Shown piece by piece: positions 31-7,114 of a stretch of 64,000 bases of DNA. The notes below the pieces were generated by a model, which searched no databases, was not told where the DNA came from, and saw nothing but the letters and a program-made list of their open reading frames with translations. The position numbers and the translations under genes are program-made. Location: NCBI GenBank assembly GCA_012862575.1, contig BLSF01000014.1, positions 558,001 through 622,000 on the forward strand, in the 5' to 3' direction. Numbering within the stretch: the stretch's first letter is position 1; each line of letters begins with the position of its first letter. The DNA is from Parietichytrium sp. I65-24A (lineage: Eukaryota > Sar > Bigyra > Thraustochytrida > Thraustochytriidae).

Positions 31-2334
31 CTAGTCCGATTTGGGGCGAGCTGTAGATTGTGGAATGGCCGAGTCGAAGAGGTTCCACATAATTTTGAGG
101 GTTTCCTCCAGAGCAAGGACCGGCAGCGAGAGCAGCAGCACGAGATGGAGCTGCTCAGCATTGAGAGGGACAAGGCCGAGAGCCGAGGACACGGCGTCCC
201 ACGAAAGGACGGCCCAGTAAATGGCGATGCTCAGCGGGACCGCGATGGACATGGGAAAGTGTTTCCAGGGCTGGACCTGAAATATGATTGACGAGCGTTC
301 CGCTATAGAGGAAATGGACAGCCACAGTTGTGAGACGAAAAGAAGTGTGAGAACGATTGTGCGGACGAGAGGGCTCAGCTCAGCATCTGCGAGAAAGTCC
401 TCCCAGGAATGCGTGGGAACTTGCGACCCAATAGGTAACAAGGGAACCGAAGATAGGTACCCAGGCCGATGTCGCTCGTCCACGAAGTATAGTATTGGCG
501 CGACGGTACATGCCGCAGCAATGTACAATGCCGGGAGTGCATACAATTGGAGATACCACGCAGTTGCAAGGTTTGAGGATGCTCGGCCAGCATAAAGCGG
601 CTCGACGTGCTGAAGTGGCAAGGCCAGCGAAGGAAGTCTAGTAACTGTCGTCAGGAGAAGGATGTGTTGCCATCTTAGCAAGTTATCAAAACCAAGGAAA
701 GCGCTGAGGCAAACGATGGTCAACGATTGCGAAAAGAACAAAGTCATGACGTATCGCGATGCGGAACGAATTTGGGTGACAAGAGTTCGCCCAAACAACA
801 CACTGGTCAAAATTGCTTCAAGATTATCGTCCATCAGCAGCAAATCTCCGACCGCTTTGGTCTCACGATGGCCGTTCACGCCCATCACGACCGACACATC
901 CGCTTGTTGAATCGCATCCTTGTCATCCTCTCCATCTCCAACATAGACCACAGCATGGCCAAGATGCTGCAGGAGCCTCACCAGCGCTAGCTTATGACGA
1001 GGTTCTGCGCGGGACACGATCGCCCCATTTGTCACAGCGTCATCCATGAATGAAGCCTTATCTTTCATCGCGAGTGCGAAAAAGTGCTGTGCGGTTGCTT
1101 GCTTGGCCGACGCAACGTCCATCCCAATCGCCTCTGCGCACCATCTCGCAGTTTGTGGGTGATCACCTGTAACCAAGAGGAAGCCAAGACCCGCCTTCTT
1201 GGCTTCGGTCAGCACGTCTGCTGCCCTGTCTCTTGGAGCGTCCAGGATGCCGACGAGGCCAACGAAACAAAGGCCAGTAGATGGAACAAAGTCATCAACG
1301 TCGGTCTCCAAGTTGCTCGCAATGTGTGACCGCGCGATCGCGAGTACTCGAAGACCTGCTCGAGTAAGGCTCTCTACCTGATCCTCAATTGCCTTCTGCA
1401 GGCTATCATCCAAGTCTATCGGACTCGCGTCCTTGCCTGTACAGAGGTATGAGCACCGCTTGATGACAGTCTCCGGAGCGCCTTTTACAGCAATAGTCCT
1501 GACCATTGAGTCCTTCTCCGTTGACATGGTCGCCATAAATTTATCTGTCGAGCGAAAGGGGACGGTCTTTCGAGTTGAAAACTTTGCATCAACAGTCAGC
1601 GCATACGGGGTCAAGGAGGTCTCGGTCCTTGATGACGGTGCGCATTCGAGACTCAGCTGGCGCGCCAGCTTTTCTACTAGTGTAACAAGCGAGGCCTCAG
1701 TGGGGTCGCCAACGGGTCGAACCTTGCCAGAGTCTGCCGCGGTACGAAGGCTTGCGTCGCGGCACAGCGCAATGGTCTCCAGACACATTTGCATGATTGG
1801 TTTCTCCTGGGTCTGAAGAAGTGTTTCGAGCTCGCCGTCCGCCGGGTCATAACTGCTTCCAGAGACCGCGAGGTTTGCTAGTTGCTTGCCGTTAGGGTGT
1901 GGAAAGACTATCTCGCGACAGCTCATTTCAGCGGCAGTCACTGTGCCTGTTTTGTCGGCAACAATGAACGTCGCATCGCCGGAGCGCTCCAAAAGTTTTC
2001 GGTCCTTTATGAGCCCATTAAGGTGGGAGATTTGCTCCGATATCTGCGTTCCAGCGACAGTTAACACCATGCGCAAGCTGTTCGGGAGGACCACCGACGC
2101 AGAGACCATCACCACCCCAAAAGCCCCGAGAAACACTTGCCAGTCAATTTCCCAAATCCTCCAAGAAACTAGTCGAGCTTGCCCAAACATCAGCGCGGCC
2201 CAAACGGCAACCGAAACTACAGCAGTGGCCTTCACAAGCACAACGGAGACCTGCTCAATGTCTCTCATCAGCGCGGTTTTATCTTTGCGTTTCGGCGCCA
2301 TTCTGCGCAGATTCTTGGCTTCATCCTTTTCCAT
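31..2334 (-). CDS. Divergent SERCA-like P-type ATPase lacking the actuator domain
   Basis: A 767-residue protein aligns by eye with SERCA from just before membrane helix M3 to the C-terminus. The phosphorylation motif DKTGT (D127), the nucleotide-site KGAPE (K284) and the TGD motif (389-391) are present. The hinge that is TGDGVND in the family reads VGDGEDD (465-471), so the Asn is lost. The M4 calcium motif PEGLP is replaced by LPNSL (83-87), and the M6 calcium ligands of the N-x-x-T-D type are not recognisable. M1, M2 and the A domain with TGES are absent. An in-frame stop lies six codons upstream of the ATG. A CAG preceded by CTGAC just upstream could be a splice acceptor, but I find no A-domain coding in the next 1.5 kb. 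It lies head to head with the intact pump at 3941. It could autophosphorylate but should not cycle or carry calcium. A regulatory or decaying paralogue is the likely state (inference). Confidence 0.85.
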   Translation of the reverse strand: MEKDEAKNLRRMAPKRKDKTALMRDIEQVSVVLVKATAVVSVAVWAALMFGQARLVSWRIWEIDWQVFLGAFGVVMVSASVVLPNSLRMVLTVAGTQISEQISHLNGLIKDRKLLERSGDATFIVADKTGTVTAAEMSCREIVFPHPNGKQLANLAVSGSSYDPADGELETLLQTQEKPIMQMCLETIALCRDASLRTAADSGKVRPVGDPTEASLVTLVEKLARQLSLECAPSSRTETSLTPYALTVDAKFSTRKTVPFRSTDKFMATMSTEKDSMVRTIAVKGAPETVIKRCSYLCTGKDASPIDLDDSLQKAIEDQVESLTRAGLRVLAIARSHIASNLETDVDDFVPSTGLCFVGLVGILDAPRDRAADVLTEAKKAGLGFLLVTGDHPQTARWCAEAIGMDVASAKQATAQHFFALAMKDKASFMDDAVTNGAIVSRAEPRHKLALVRLLQHLGHAVVYVGDGEDDKDAIQQADVSVVMGVNGHRETKAVGDLLLMDDNLEAILTSVLFGRTLVTQIRSASRYVMTLFFSQSLTIVCLSAFLGFDNLLRWQHILLLTTVTRLPSLALPLQHVEPLYAGRASSNLATAWYLQLYALPALYIAAACTVAPILYFVDERHRPGYLSSVPLLPIGSQVPTHSWEDFLADAELSPLVRTIVLTLLFVSQLWLSISSIAERSSIIFQVQPWKHFPMSIAVPLSIAIYWAVLSWDAVSSALGLVPLNAEQLHLVLLLSLPVLALEETLKIMWNLFDSAIPQSTARPKSD

Positions 2335-3897
2335 CTTACTTTCTGCCGCACCAGGTCAGTCGCTCATTCGCAATACAAGACCACGATCCAGCCGAATCCG
2401 CCTAGCAGACGAATAGCTTTCTTACGCTTTAATTCAATTGCATCAACACGCATCAACCCTCCGCGCACCTTTCCACGACTTAAACTTGACTGTGAGTCAA
2501 GTTCAAGCTGTGTACGTTCATGAAAATCTTTGATTTCAATACTAGCACTGAATTTCAGTAAAAGTCAAGAAAAGTGGACCTCTTGCCTTCTCCCGCAACT
2601 CCCGCAGTAACTGCCAGGCACGGTTGTCGTCTCGTAGCCGTCTGTGTGACGTTTATGTGCGATAGTGAACTCGTAACGGATTTATCTGTAGCTAGATGTA
2701 ATCTATGTGATTAGTGTGATGAGAGTGATGAGAGGAGGCCCAATGTGACGGATGGAAGCATGTGACTTCGAGTTGGGTGAAGTTAGTCCACGCGTAGAAA
2801 TAAAACGTATTGCGAGCTTCCAGAAATTTAGGGAAACTAGGTACTAGTTAGTATTGATACTGAGTACTGAGTACTGACTGTGGGAGAGAAGTACTAGCTA
2901 GAGCAGTACTTTTGTCCGAATTCTCCGCCGCTTTTTTTTCTTAAAACTGACAAATTTGACATGTGAATGTGAATGCGTTGGGAACAACGACTTTCTAATT
3001 TATCTTCGATTGTGATAGAGGCTAGATGAAAGATGATAGAAACCTAAAAAGTAAAAGCAAAAGTCGTTCTCGATCAAGCAGGAACTTTTCCTTTTTCTCT
3101 CCTGTGACAGCTGTCGAGCAGTACAGTTGTCTAGTCCATATCTCTAGTACCCTCTCTATGGGCTGTTCTAGATAGAAATATCTTTGTTCTCTCATTTCCT
3201 GCCACGTAATTGCCCTCTCTCTTACGGCTCCATCCTAAGGAATTCAATAACCCTGAGAGCCTCTCGCTTCTCCCTATCTCCCCTCTATCCCCTCTACCCG
3301 TCCTACTAGCACACACCTATGCACACCGTTAGCCATCCTAGCACCCCTCTCTCCCCTCCCACTCGCCGTATAAAAGCTCCTAGGAAACCGTCCAGTGCTA
3401 CCATTAACTCTGAATGGGACTACCGAGGGACTGACCTGGCCGGCGTAGCGTGTAGCTAACGATAAACATACCACTCTCTCTCACGGACTGAGAGAGAAAG
3501 AGAACTACGACACTGTGATACAGAGAGAGAGAGAGAGAGGGAGAGAGAGTCAGAGAGAGGGAGCTCGTCGCATACGTGCAGGGAGGGTACGCGAGGACAG
3601 GTAAGTACTTGCTGGAGTGGCGCGGAAAGAGAGTGACTGAGTGAGCGAGCGAGACAGACAGAGAGAGAGAGAGAGCAGAGAGAGGGGGAAAGGAAGAGAC
3701 AAGACAAGACAAGACAGGAAAAGACGACCAAGTTGAAAGTTGAAAGTTGAAAGGTGGAGAGTGTACGCGCTGAGCTGGTTTCTGACGAATAACCTGTGTT
3801 GTGTGTGTTGTTGTTGTTGTTTCTTGTGGTGTGGTGTACGCGTAGTTTGGCGGGTGCGAGTCTGGTAAAGAAGGTGTGCCTTGTGCCTTGTGCGGAC

Positions 3898-3936
<39 letters not shown>

Positions 3937-3940
3937 CAGT
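2335..3940. other. Shared 5' spacer between two divergent P-type ATPase genes
   Basis: No convincing coding sequence was found. The spacer holds several GAGTACT repeats near 2860-2885, TC/GA-rich stretches, and (GA)n runs at 3522-3560 and 3901-3934. The last run ends six bases before the SERCA start codon, so it is probably 5' UTR. Long antisense readings here are low-complexity Leu-Ser translations of the GA repeats. Confidence 0.6.
3901..3934. repeat. (GA)n microsatellite in the SERCA 5' leader
   Basis: About 17 uninterrupted GA units lie immediately upstream of the ATG at 3941. In one frame the repeat reads as Arg-Glu repeats joined to the pump, which argues for the downstream ATG as the true start. 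Confidence 0.9.
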
Positions 3941-6900
3941 ATGGAGGCGCCGTGGGCGGAGGAGGTGCCGGCGTGCGAGAAGGCGCTGGGCACGAGCGTG
4001 GAGAAAGGTCTGAGCGCTGGGGATGTGGAGAAGAAGCGCGAAAAGTTCGGGTACAATGAGCTGCCGAAGGAGGAAGGCACGAGCTTTTGGGAGCTGGTGC
4101 TGGAGCAGTTTGATGACCCGCTGGTTAAGATTTTGCTCGTGGCCGCCGTGGTGTCGGCTGCCATCGCTATGAGCGAAGTGTACGAGAAGGGAGAGAGCAT
4201 CTCTGTGGAGAAGTTTGTGGAGCCGCTGGTCATCCTCCTCATCTTGATCCTGAATGCCATCGTGGGTGTGTACCAGGAGAGCAATGCGGAAAAGTCGCTG
4301 GAGGCGCTCAAGGAGATGCAGCCGGAAATGGCCCGCACTCTGCGCGATGGAGAATGGATTTCCGATCTCAGCGCGCGCGAGTTGGTTCCTGGTGACATCG
4401 TGGAGCTCCGTGTTGGTGATAAGGTCCCTGCTGATTGCCGTATTGCCGTGCTCAAGACCACCACCCTCCGCGCGGAACAAATGGCGCTTACAGGAGAGTC
4501 CGTAGCTGTGTCCAAGCAGGATGAGCCCGTCCACGAAAAAGACTGTGACATCCAGTCCAAGAGCAGCATGCTTTTTGCAGGCACTGCTCTTGCGAACGGC
4601 CACTGCTATGCGATCGTCACCTCCATTGGCCTGAGCACCGAGATTGGTAAGATCCAGGAGCAGCTGGAAGCCGCTGCTGCGGAGCGCGCAGAGGAGAAGA
4701 CCCCGCTTAAGCAAAAGCTTGAGGAGTTCAGCGATCAGCTCCAGCTCATCATTTCTGTCATTTGCTTGGCTGTGTGGCTTATCAACTTTCGTATGTTTGT
4801 GGACCTCGAGAATATGAGCTTCGACGTGAAGAAAGCTATTTACTACTTTCAGATCGCCGTGGCCCTGGCTGTGGCTGCTGTTCCAGAGGGCCTCCCAACC
4901 GTCATTACCATGTGCCTTGCTCTTGGAACACGTAAGATGGCCGCTCGCAACGCAATCGTTCGCAAGCTTCCCGCTGTGGAGACCCTTGGCTGCACCTCAG
5001 TCATTTGCTCCGACAAGACCGGAACGTTGACCACCAACCAGATGTCGGTTCGCTCTGTAGTCGTCAGCGGTGCCTCCGAGACCGCCACCTCTTCCTTCAA
5101 AGTCACTGGGTCCACCTACGACCCATCGGACGGTAGCATCAGCTTGGAAGGTGGCGCATATTCCACTGCTTTGGACCGCCTGGCTCAGATTTGTGCTCTT
5201 TGTAACGAGTCCACCATTGAGCTCAACGAGAAGAACGGCAAATTCAGGCACATCGGAGCACCCACCGAGTCTGCTCTTACCGTGCTGGTTGAAAAGCTCT
5301 GCAGTGCTGGCAAGCGCGCTTCCTCTGGATCCGGCCATTTGCCGCACAACACCGCTCTGCAGACTGAGAACAACAAGCTTGCCACCCTTGAGTTCACCCG
5401 TGACCGCAAGTCGATGAGTGTCATTGTGCGCAAAGGCAAGACCCGCGGCTCTTCCAACGAACTTTTGGTCAAGGGTGCTCCTGAGAGCCTTCTCGAGCGA
5501 TGCTCGACTATCTTGCTGGAGAACGGAAAAATTGCCCCCCTTACCGAAGCTGGCAAGAAGGCCATCACCACGGAGATCAACAACATGTCTGCCAAAGCTT
5601 GGCGCTGCCTCGGATTTGCCTACTCTGATGACCTCGGACCTCTCAAGGACTTTGACGGCCCTCACCATGCATCTGCTGCCAAATTGCGCAACCCTTCTGA
5701 CTTTGTCAAGGTAGAGGAGAATCTCACCTGGGTCGGCATCGTTGGCATGCAGGATCCTCCTCGCGATGAGGTTAAAGAGGCTATGGTTGCTTGCCGTCGC
5801 GCCGGAATTCGCGTCATCGTCATTACCGGGGACAACAAACTCACTGCTGAGGCTATCTGCCGCGATATCGGTGTTTTTGAAGCGAATGAAGACATCTCAA
5901 GCAAATCTTTCATTGGCCAAGAATTTAGCAAGCTTCCAGTTGACCAACAGAACAAGTACCTTCTTGCGGATCGTCTTGGAGGCATGGTGTTCTCCCGCGC
6001 TGAGCCAAAGTTCAAGCAGGATATTATCAAGCTTCTGAAGCAAGCTGGGGATGTGACCGCTATGACTGGAGATGGTGTGAATGATGCGCCTGCCCTCAAG
6101 ATGGCTGACATTGGAGTCGCCATGGGTGTGACTGGTACCGAAGTAGCTAAGGAAGCCTCTGACTTTGTCCTCAGTGATGACAACTTCGCCACAATTGTTC
6201 GTGCAATCGAGGAGGGCCGCTCTATCTACGACAACATGCGTGCTTTCATCCGCTACATGATCAGCTCCAACGTTGGAGAGGTGATGAGTATCTTTTTTGT
6301 TGCTGCTCTCGGACTTCCAGAAGGCATGGTTCCTGTCCAGCTCCTTTGGGTCAACCTTGTCACGGACGGCCCACCCGCGACCGCTCTAGGCTTCAACAAG
6401 GCTGATTACGACATCATGGACCGCAAGCCACGTGACCGCAATGAGCCGCTCATTTCCAGCTGGGTTCTCTTCCGCTACATTGTGATTGGTACCTATGTTG
6501 GGTTTGCCACCGTGGGAGCCTTCGTGACATGGTACCAGCATGGAGTGGGAAGCGACAAGTTCCTCGGTTTGTTGGATCTTTCCAAGGACGGACATTCCTC
6601 CGCATCTCTCCACCAGCTGATGAACTGGGAGAAGTGCGACCCGTCCACTAACGTTTTCTATTTGGACGGAAAGGAGGAGAAGTTCACTGCAAACTCGTGG
6701 ACCGCCGGCTCCAAGACGTATGACATCACCGGGTGCGACTTCTTTGGAGATGTTGGCAAGATGAAGGCAAGCACCCTCTCCCTCTCTGTCCTCGTAGCAA
6801 TTGAAATGCTCAACGCTTTGAACGCGCTCAGTGAGAACGGAAGTCTGTTGGTCATTCCACCATGGGACAACCCATACTTGCTCTTGGCCATGGCACTGTC

Positions 6901-7114
6901 TTTTGCATTGCACTTTATGATTTTGTATGTGCCGGCACTCTCGCCCATGTTTGATGTTGTGCCCCTCTCCAAAGAGGAATGGGCACTGGTGTTCATCTAT
7001 AGTTTCCCAGTAATCATCATTGATGAGATCCTCAAGTTTATCGGCCGTCAGATGAACAAGCAGGAGCAGAGCATGCGCGAAGAGAAGCGCCTGCGTGCCA
7101 AGAAAGAACATTAA
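3941..7114 (+). CDS. SERCA-type calcium-transporting P-type ATPase (P2A)
   Basis: A 1057-residue, apparently intronless pump that moves cytosolic Ca2+ into the ER at the cost of ATP. The whole family set is visible in order: M1-M2, the actuator motif TGES (184-187), the M4 calcium motif PEGLP (315-319), phosphorylation site DKTGT (D358), [20 protein letters not shown], the M6 segment [11 protein letters not shown] and the C-terminal helices. Its length matches SERCA (about 1000 residues). The protein ends KKEH, a KKXX dilysine signal, which fits ER retrieval. I chose the ATG at 3941 because an upstream in-frame ATG at 3881 would translate the (GA)n run. The loop between M7 and M8 carries a Cys-containing lumenal stretch. 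The head-to-head neighbour is its degenerate paralogue. Very high confidence in family, high in ER location. Confidence 0.97.

Follow-up and report, generated by a model that had tools for sequence, protein, structure and literature searches.

A SERCA-like protein without an actuator domain in Parietichytrium sp. I65-24A: a candidate non-transporting pseudo-pump

Introduction

In P-type ATPases, the actuator domain, M1-M2 and the phosphorylation domain are treated as inseparable. A gene of the thraustochytrid Parietichytrium sp. I65-24A raises the question of what a SERCA-like protein may be when it carries the phosphorylation domain and lacks the other two. The window analysed here is a stretch of 64,000 nucleotides (G000:C14:558001-622000) from a genome of 42.5 Mb in 172 contigs. 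An initial annotation of this stretch had described a SERCA paralogue without actuator domain, adjoining an intact pump, and several of its claims are taken up below.

An open frame that begins at M3

The gene was confirmed as an uninterrupted frame and assigned to the minus strand, which had been absent from the initial annotation (Table 1). A TGA eight codons 5′ of the ATG closes the frame upstream. Comparison with Pfam gave matches to the N domain (PF13246, 1.2e-15), the HAD/P domain (PF00702, 2.6e-12) and the C-terminal membrane block (PF00689, 2.5e-8), and phmmer aligned frame residues 11-750 with residues 238-987 of SERCA2 (E 3.5e-59), that is, from just N-terminal of M3 to the end of M10. 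The reported loss of the A domain and of M1-M2 is therefore borne out by the start of the SERCA match at residue 238 and by a Pfam result without actuator domain, as is the reported presence of the C-terminal membrane block. The actuator model PF00122 reached 15.9 bits in the frame, under its cut-off, and covered profile positions 100-178 of 181 only, the M3-M4 end and not the actuator domain.

Table 1. Features of the actuator-less gene and of its surroundings (positions in the window)
Feature	Position	Strand	Basis or detail
SERCA-like open frame lacking the actuator domain and M1-M2	31..2334	-	767 codons
M3, residues 21-55 in the model	2170..2274	-	AlphaFold2 helix, hydropathy, alignment
M4, residues 65-104; P308 kept (P84), E309 to Asn (N85), no PEGLP	2023..2142	-	AlphaFold2 helix, residue comparison
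DKTGT, residues 127-131, phosphorylation Asp kept	1942..1956	-	Residue comparison, pattern match
N domain, about residues 140-355; E213, F260, K265, M267, K284, R329 kept	1270..1917	-	Pfam, conservation
P domain, second part, about residues 356-504	823..1269	-	Pfam, conservation
GDGEDD for GDGVND, residues 466-471; V705 = Glu469, N706 = Asp470	922..939	-	Alignment
Glu491 at the V726 position, on the P-domain surface that receives the actuator in SERCA	862..864	-	Alignment
M5-M10, residues 505-756; N768F, E771Q, N796T, D800R; T799 kept	67..822	-	Residue comparison, AlphaFold2
Intergenic stretch, actuator-domain coding not found	2335..3940	.	tblastn, profile scan
Complete SERCA of 1057 aa, in head-to-head orientation to the 767-codon frame	3941..7114	+	TIGR01116 1048.7 bits, above cut-off

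An AlphaFold2 model of the protein (mean pLDDT 86.5, pTM 0.85) showed M3-M10 as eight helices. Its best Foldseek match was the SERCA structure 5ncq (E 1.6e-40, TM-score 0.79 on the query), and SERCA structures occupied ranks 1-32 among the best 50 listed. The alignment used for folding held 67 of 71 prokaryote loci together with the two window proteins; with 67 intact pumps in it, a pump-like model is expected and is no proof of folding.

Descent from the SERCA family

The profile search that had been called for placed the protein in the SERCA family. TIGR01116 was the highest-scoring NCBIfam model at 205.7 bits, ahead of a second model at 158.8, and its cut-off of 703.4, set for whole pumps, was not reached. 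In a tree of 27 rows, comprising 18 of the 71 prokaryote loci (every fourth) and nine sequences of this genome, the actuator-less protein was sister to the pair formed by the organism's own SERCAs with support 98/96. One of the pair is the adjoining pump, whose annotation as intact was correct, and the other is a second SERCA on contig C11 (L039). The branch of the actuator-less protein measured 4.5, compared with 0.54 and 0.60 for the SERCAs, and the program warns that such long rows are placed unsurely. Forcing it to pair with the neighbouring SERCA (p 0.035) or with L039 (p 0.036) lowered the likelihood, these constraints having been chosen after the tree was seen.

The two SERCAs are 49.8% identical to each other, and the actuator-less protein shares 26.7% of its residues with the neighbour and 24.8% with L039. 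The two genes diverge, with 1.6 kb between their start codons. A recent inverted duplication of the neighbouring SERCA was considered and was rejected on the low identity, the tree and the p values of the constrained clades. The position outside the pair of own SERCAs indicates that the gene is probably no recent copy of its neighbour. What the protein shares with SERCA (P2A, TIGR01116) is the order of M3-M10, P and N, the motifs DKTGT, KGAPE, TGD and GDGxxD, and the own-SERCA clade; it differs in having no actuator domain and no M1-M2, in most of its M4-M6 ligands and in a profile score far from that of a whole pump. Directly 5′ of the start codon of the neighbouring SERCA, long GA-rich simple repeats occupy positions 3481-3935 of the window.

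Search for a missing actuator domain

One possible artefact is a gene seen incompletely: the frame might represent just a 3′ exon, or its 5′ part might have been lost in assembly, and the real protein would then have a normal actuator. When the N-terminus of SERCA was compared by tblastn with positions 2335-3938, the best E among the matches listed was 0.69, on the plus strand. Further, an N-terminal profile built from 73 pumps was run at full sensitivity in six frames over about 27 kb around the gene, and it found the neighbouring SERCA only, the next best E being 0.35. At the level of sequence, the upstream TGES exon that would have contradicted the initial annotation was not found in the 1.6 kb upstream or, apart from the domain of SERCA, in the 27 kb.

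The search was extended to the genome, where PF00122 gave 23 matches: 21 genes with DKTGT downstream, one repeat match that falls within one of these genes, and one free domain on contig C28. The exact pattern DKTGT occurs 41 times and comprises the 21 PF00122 genes, the 767-codon frame, three P4-like genes and 16 matches that are non-P-type by context. The PF00122 scan recovered 21 of the 24 other P-type genes, and all three that it missed at E 0.01 are the P4-like ones (C22, C25:156566 and C41). An actuator region is visible by eye in C41, and C22 and C25:156566 have an open frame of at least some 470 codons upstream. The 767-codon frame is then the only one of 25 P-type genes without coding of actuator length before DKTGT, in a count that rests on the exact motif and that other spellings, or an intron within the motif, would escape.

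P-type loci from prokaryotes (at least 80) and from viral contigs (44) were aligned as a yardstick. A DKTG frame was present in 119 of the 124 loci listed, and at least 250 residues preceded DKTG in 106 of the 107 listed loci with a closed 5′ end. The one locus with fewer residues, L172, lies at a viral contig end (IMG/VR) and resembles a junction: a P2A fragment directly follows unrelated-looking sequence, as in a chimeric assembly. Seven other P-type ATPases (L144, L145, L149, L154, L155, L158 and L161), on IMG/VR contigs called viral, read NGE (NGES or NGET) for TGE in the actuator loop and keep DKTGT.

Introns probably exist in this genome, which speaks for a missing exon: a P4-type ATPase gene on contig C48 (L037:2622-6975) is divided between two open frames (451 and 987 codons), and the break is probably due to a frameshift or a short intron. 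The three P4-like genes missed by PF00122 point the same way. Against this, no P2-type actuator match other than that of SERCA lies within the 27 kb, every genomic PF00122 match except one belongs to a gene with its own DKTGT, the exception is on another contig, and a hidden exon would leave the changed calcium ligands unexplained. We therefore regard a hidden or lost 5′ part as very improbable.

A conserved head on an altered membrane part

Residue numbers of pumps are given below as what we take to be the SERCA1 positions, placed by motif. The head is identical to that of the neighbouring SERCA at 21 of the 24 positions checked, including the phosphorylated Asp, and the three mismatches are R489S, T701V and N706D; Ser at the R489 position is the commonest letter in the reference pumps (63 of 73). 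The nucleotide pocket is complete (E442, F487, K492, K515 and R560, five of five), and the phosphorylation motif is present at residues 127-131, in agreement with the initial annotation on both the Asp and the nucleotide-binding residues. In the protein's own numbering, D365, R368, T389-G390-D391, R442, K448, D467 and D471 are kept in the second part of the P domain.

The hinge, TGDGVND in pumps, reads VGDGEDD. Its description as changed was right about GDGEDD for GDGVND, but both Mg-binding-type aspartates (D703 and D707) remain. Together with T701V and N706D, the replacements A708K and P709D affect near-invariant letters beside the active site, so that phosphorylation may also be lost, and the changed hinge makes autophosphorylation less sure than ATP binding.

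A phosphotransferase, in which Asp127 would take the phosphate of ATP and, with no actuator involved, transfer it to a protein, a small molecule or water in the manner of other HAD enzymes, would fit the retention of the HAD motifs DKTGT, T-G-D, K and GDGxxD. In most HAD phosphatases, an Asp two residues after the nucleophilic Asp acts as general acid. Here that residue is Thr, as in pumps, and no acceptor or cap change was identified, which makes such an activity quite improbable.

In SERCA, according to excerpts of two studies, V705 and V726 of the P domain contact I179 and L180 of the actuator when the latter swings in (PMC5259720; PMC8501872). Both positions, picked after the sequence had been seen, are Glu in the actuator-less protein, whereas the reference pumps carry Val in 70 of 73 and in 61 of 73, respectively. 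The replacement of both docking valines fits an old loss of the actuator and argues against docking of an actuator in trans in the usual mode.

In the membrane part, five of the six M4-M6 calcium ligands checked are changed, E309, N768, E771, N796 and D800 reading N, F, Q, T and R, and T799 is the sole one unchanged. In M8, E908 is replaced by Gln, also the most frequent residue of the reference pumps at this position (41 of 73). The reported loss of PEGLP was confirmed by residue comparison, with P308 nonetheless kept. The broader claim that the calcium ligands had been lost stood for most of the M4-M6 set and not for the whole ion site, which is not wholly erased since T799 and P308 persist. 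From these residues, calcium transport by the protein would be nil. With no TGES actuator and with these ligands changed, the view that the protein alone could not complete the Post-Albers cycle is supported.

A free actuator domain elsewhere in the genome

The free domain on contig C28 is an open reading frame of 218 aa (L036:4478-5131, G000:C28:398477-399130) that matches PF00122 (6.9e-14) and, weakly, PF00690 (6.2e-4). It is P2C-like, with 58.6 bits for TIGR01106 against 33.2 for TIGR01116, and has Na,K-ATPase as its closest match (5.8e-18; SERCA2, 6.4e-6), so it does not represent the half that the window protein lost. The place of TGES reads SSER by eye. Its codon score is 0.115, compared with at most 0.043 in the other frames. 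Around it no DKTGT and no P domain were found, and hydropathy of the frame showed no membrane span. Viral contigs searched for close relatives gave three pattern matches, none of which was confirmed. The fission of a single gene into this frame and the 767-codon frame was rejected because the two belong to different subfamilies.

It is odd that one genome contains both a pump body lacking its actuator and an actuator lacking its pump. The combination, each piece being the only one of its sort in the genome scans run and the free frame having an ordinary coding score, invites the idea of a two-piece pump that receives its actuator in trans, from the C28 protein or from SERCA itself. This is extremely improbable, given that the free domain is P2C-like and the two are hence not halves of one broken gene, that SSER stands in place of TGES, that V705E and V726E remove the docking surface and that most ion ligands are gone.

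Selected gene or decaying remnant

The codon score of the 767-codon frame was 0.131, within the range of 0.059-0.274 of 16 other long frames of the window, picked by hand without annotation; the five other frames over the same stretch scored from -0.029 to 0.074. Over the first two thirds of the gene the coding frame has the highest score; in the final third an antisense frame equals or exceeds it. Neutral decay of a SERCA to 27% identity, simulated 60 times with substitutions only and indels not counted, gave a mean of 25 stops and at least 15 in every run, and no simulation (0 of 60) was free of stops. This result rules out decay over the whole divergence and not a recent truncation.

Conservation was assessed with 73 pumps, namely the two own SERCAs and the 71 of 80 prokaryote loci with complete frames of at least 780 aa and TGE; viral loci were left out, and conserved sites were counted only where the own SERCA carries the consensus. 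At sites conserved in at least 97% of pumps, the protein retained the consensus at 40 of the 50 head positions and at three of the 11 membrane positions (Fisher p 0.0014); with a threshold of at least 90% the figures were 50 of 74 and six of 17 (p 0.025). By part, the 97% sites kept were 9/10 in P1, 7/7 in N and 24/33 in P2, against 2/6 in M3-M4, 1/3 in M5-M6 and 0/2 in M7-M10. The background identity to the own SERCA was 51/192 in N, 55/162 in P2 and 36/182 in M7-M10. From the codon score, the simulations and this pattern, the frame looks selected rather than simply decayed.

The alternative is a relaxed or dying gene, that is, a divergent SERCA-like pump whose 5′ part was lost by a fairly recent rearrangement and which has not yet gathered stops. 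The abrupt 5′ end at the actuator-M3 linker and the long branch would agree with it, and no orthologue showing constraint was found in the viral contigs (one pattern match, none confirmed) or the prokaryote genomes (16 matches, none confirmed) searched for close relatives. Conversely, no actuator remnant was found upstream, and the loss of ion ligands and docking valines alongside retention of the ATP site suggests that pumping ceased long ago. A gene on its way to loss is in our judgement unlikely.

A proposed pseudo-pump and its possible role

Taken from sequence, the reading that we favour, with slightly better than even confidence, is that of an old SERCA paralogue that is now a non-transporting, ATP-binding pseudo-pump. 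The protein is probably no longer a pump and, by analogy, may be a regulator. Such a pseudo-pump would reside in an endomembrane, the head facing the cytosol, and would bind ATP in the kept pocket, and D127 might be autophosphorylated to an aspartyl phosphate. Hydrolysis of this phosphate in cis by the TGES route would not take place, and long-lived nucleotide-bound or phosphorylated states would result. These could conceivably serve in signalling, sensing or regulation, perhaps through contact with a partner of SERCA or with SERCA itself, as in the pairing with the adjoining pump that the initial annotation had suggested. A stronger version would be a half-cycle switch that has shed the actuator for good, loads ATP, perhaps phosphorylates itself and is reset by another protein; we consider it a long shot, and in its boldest form the reset may come from a detached actuator domain, one of which is present in this genome.

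Related systems and significance

Searches of open-access full text with narrow phrases for an actuator-less P-type ATPase or a P-type pseudoenzyme found no paper, and a description elsewhere is possible. The nearest precedent is TMEM94/ERMA, a human protein of the endoplasmic reticulum that has P-type architecture without TGES (PMC12134183), as does the window protein, and whose status as a pump is disputed (PMC12134183; excerpts of PMC13322241). As far as the excerpted text of the latter goes, ten helices and an actuator-like domain are retained in TMEM94 and the phosphorylation motifs are lost, reading DKQGI and GSSANL (PMC13322241); it is the reverse of the window protein, which retains the chemistry and has lost the actuator. 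In apicomplexans and ciliates, a P4-ATPase module is fused to a guanylyl cyclase, a case of a P-type module in signalling, and one conserved residue of it is reported to be needed, according to part of the source (PMC7858053). That module, as described there, differs from the window protein in being of P4 type and fused, whereas the latter is SERCA-like and stands alone. The free C28 frame, too, is one isolated part of a P2 ATPase, and differs in being P2C-like, soluble by hydropathy and on another contig. The portion available of a review of protist P-type ATPases mentions partial genes and pseudogenes and describes none like the window protein (PMC6884021).

If the gene is under selection, the phosphorylation and nucleotide half of a P-type ATPase would be useful alone, and the protein would be a natural test of the role of the actuator. 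It would also complement TMEM94, which kept the opposite half.
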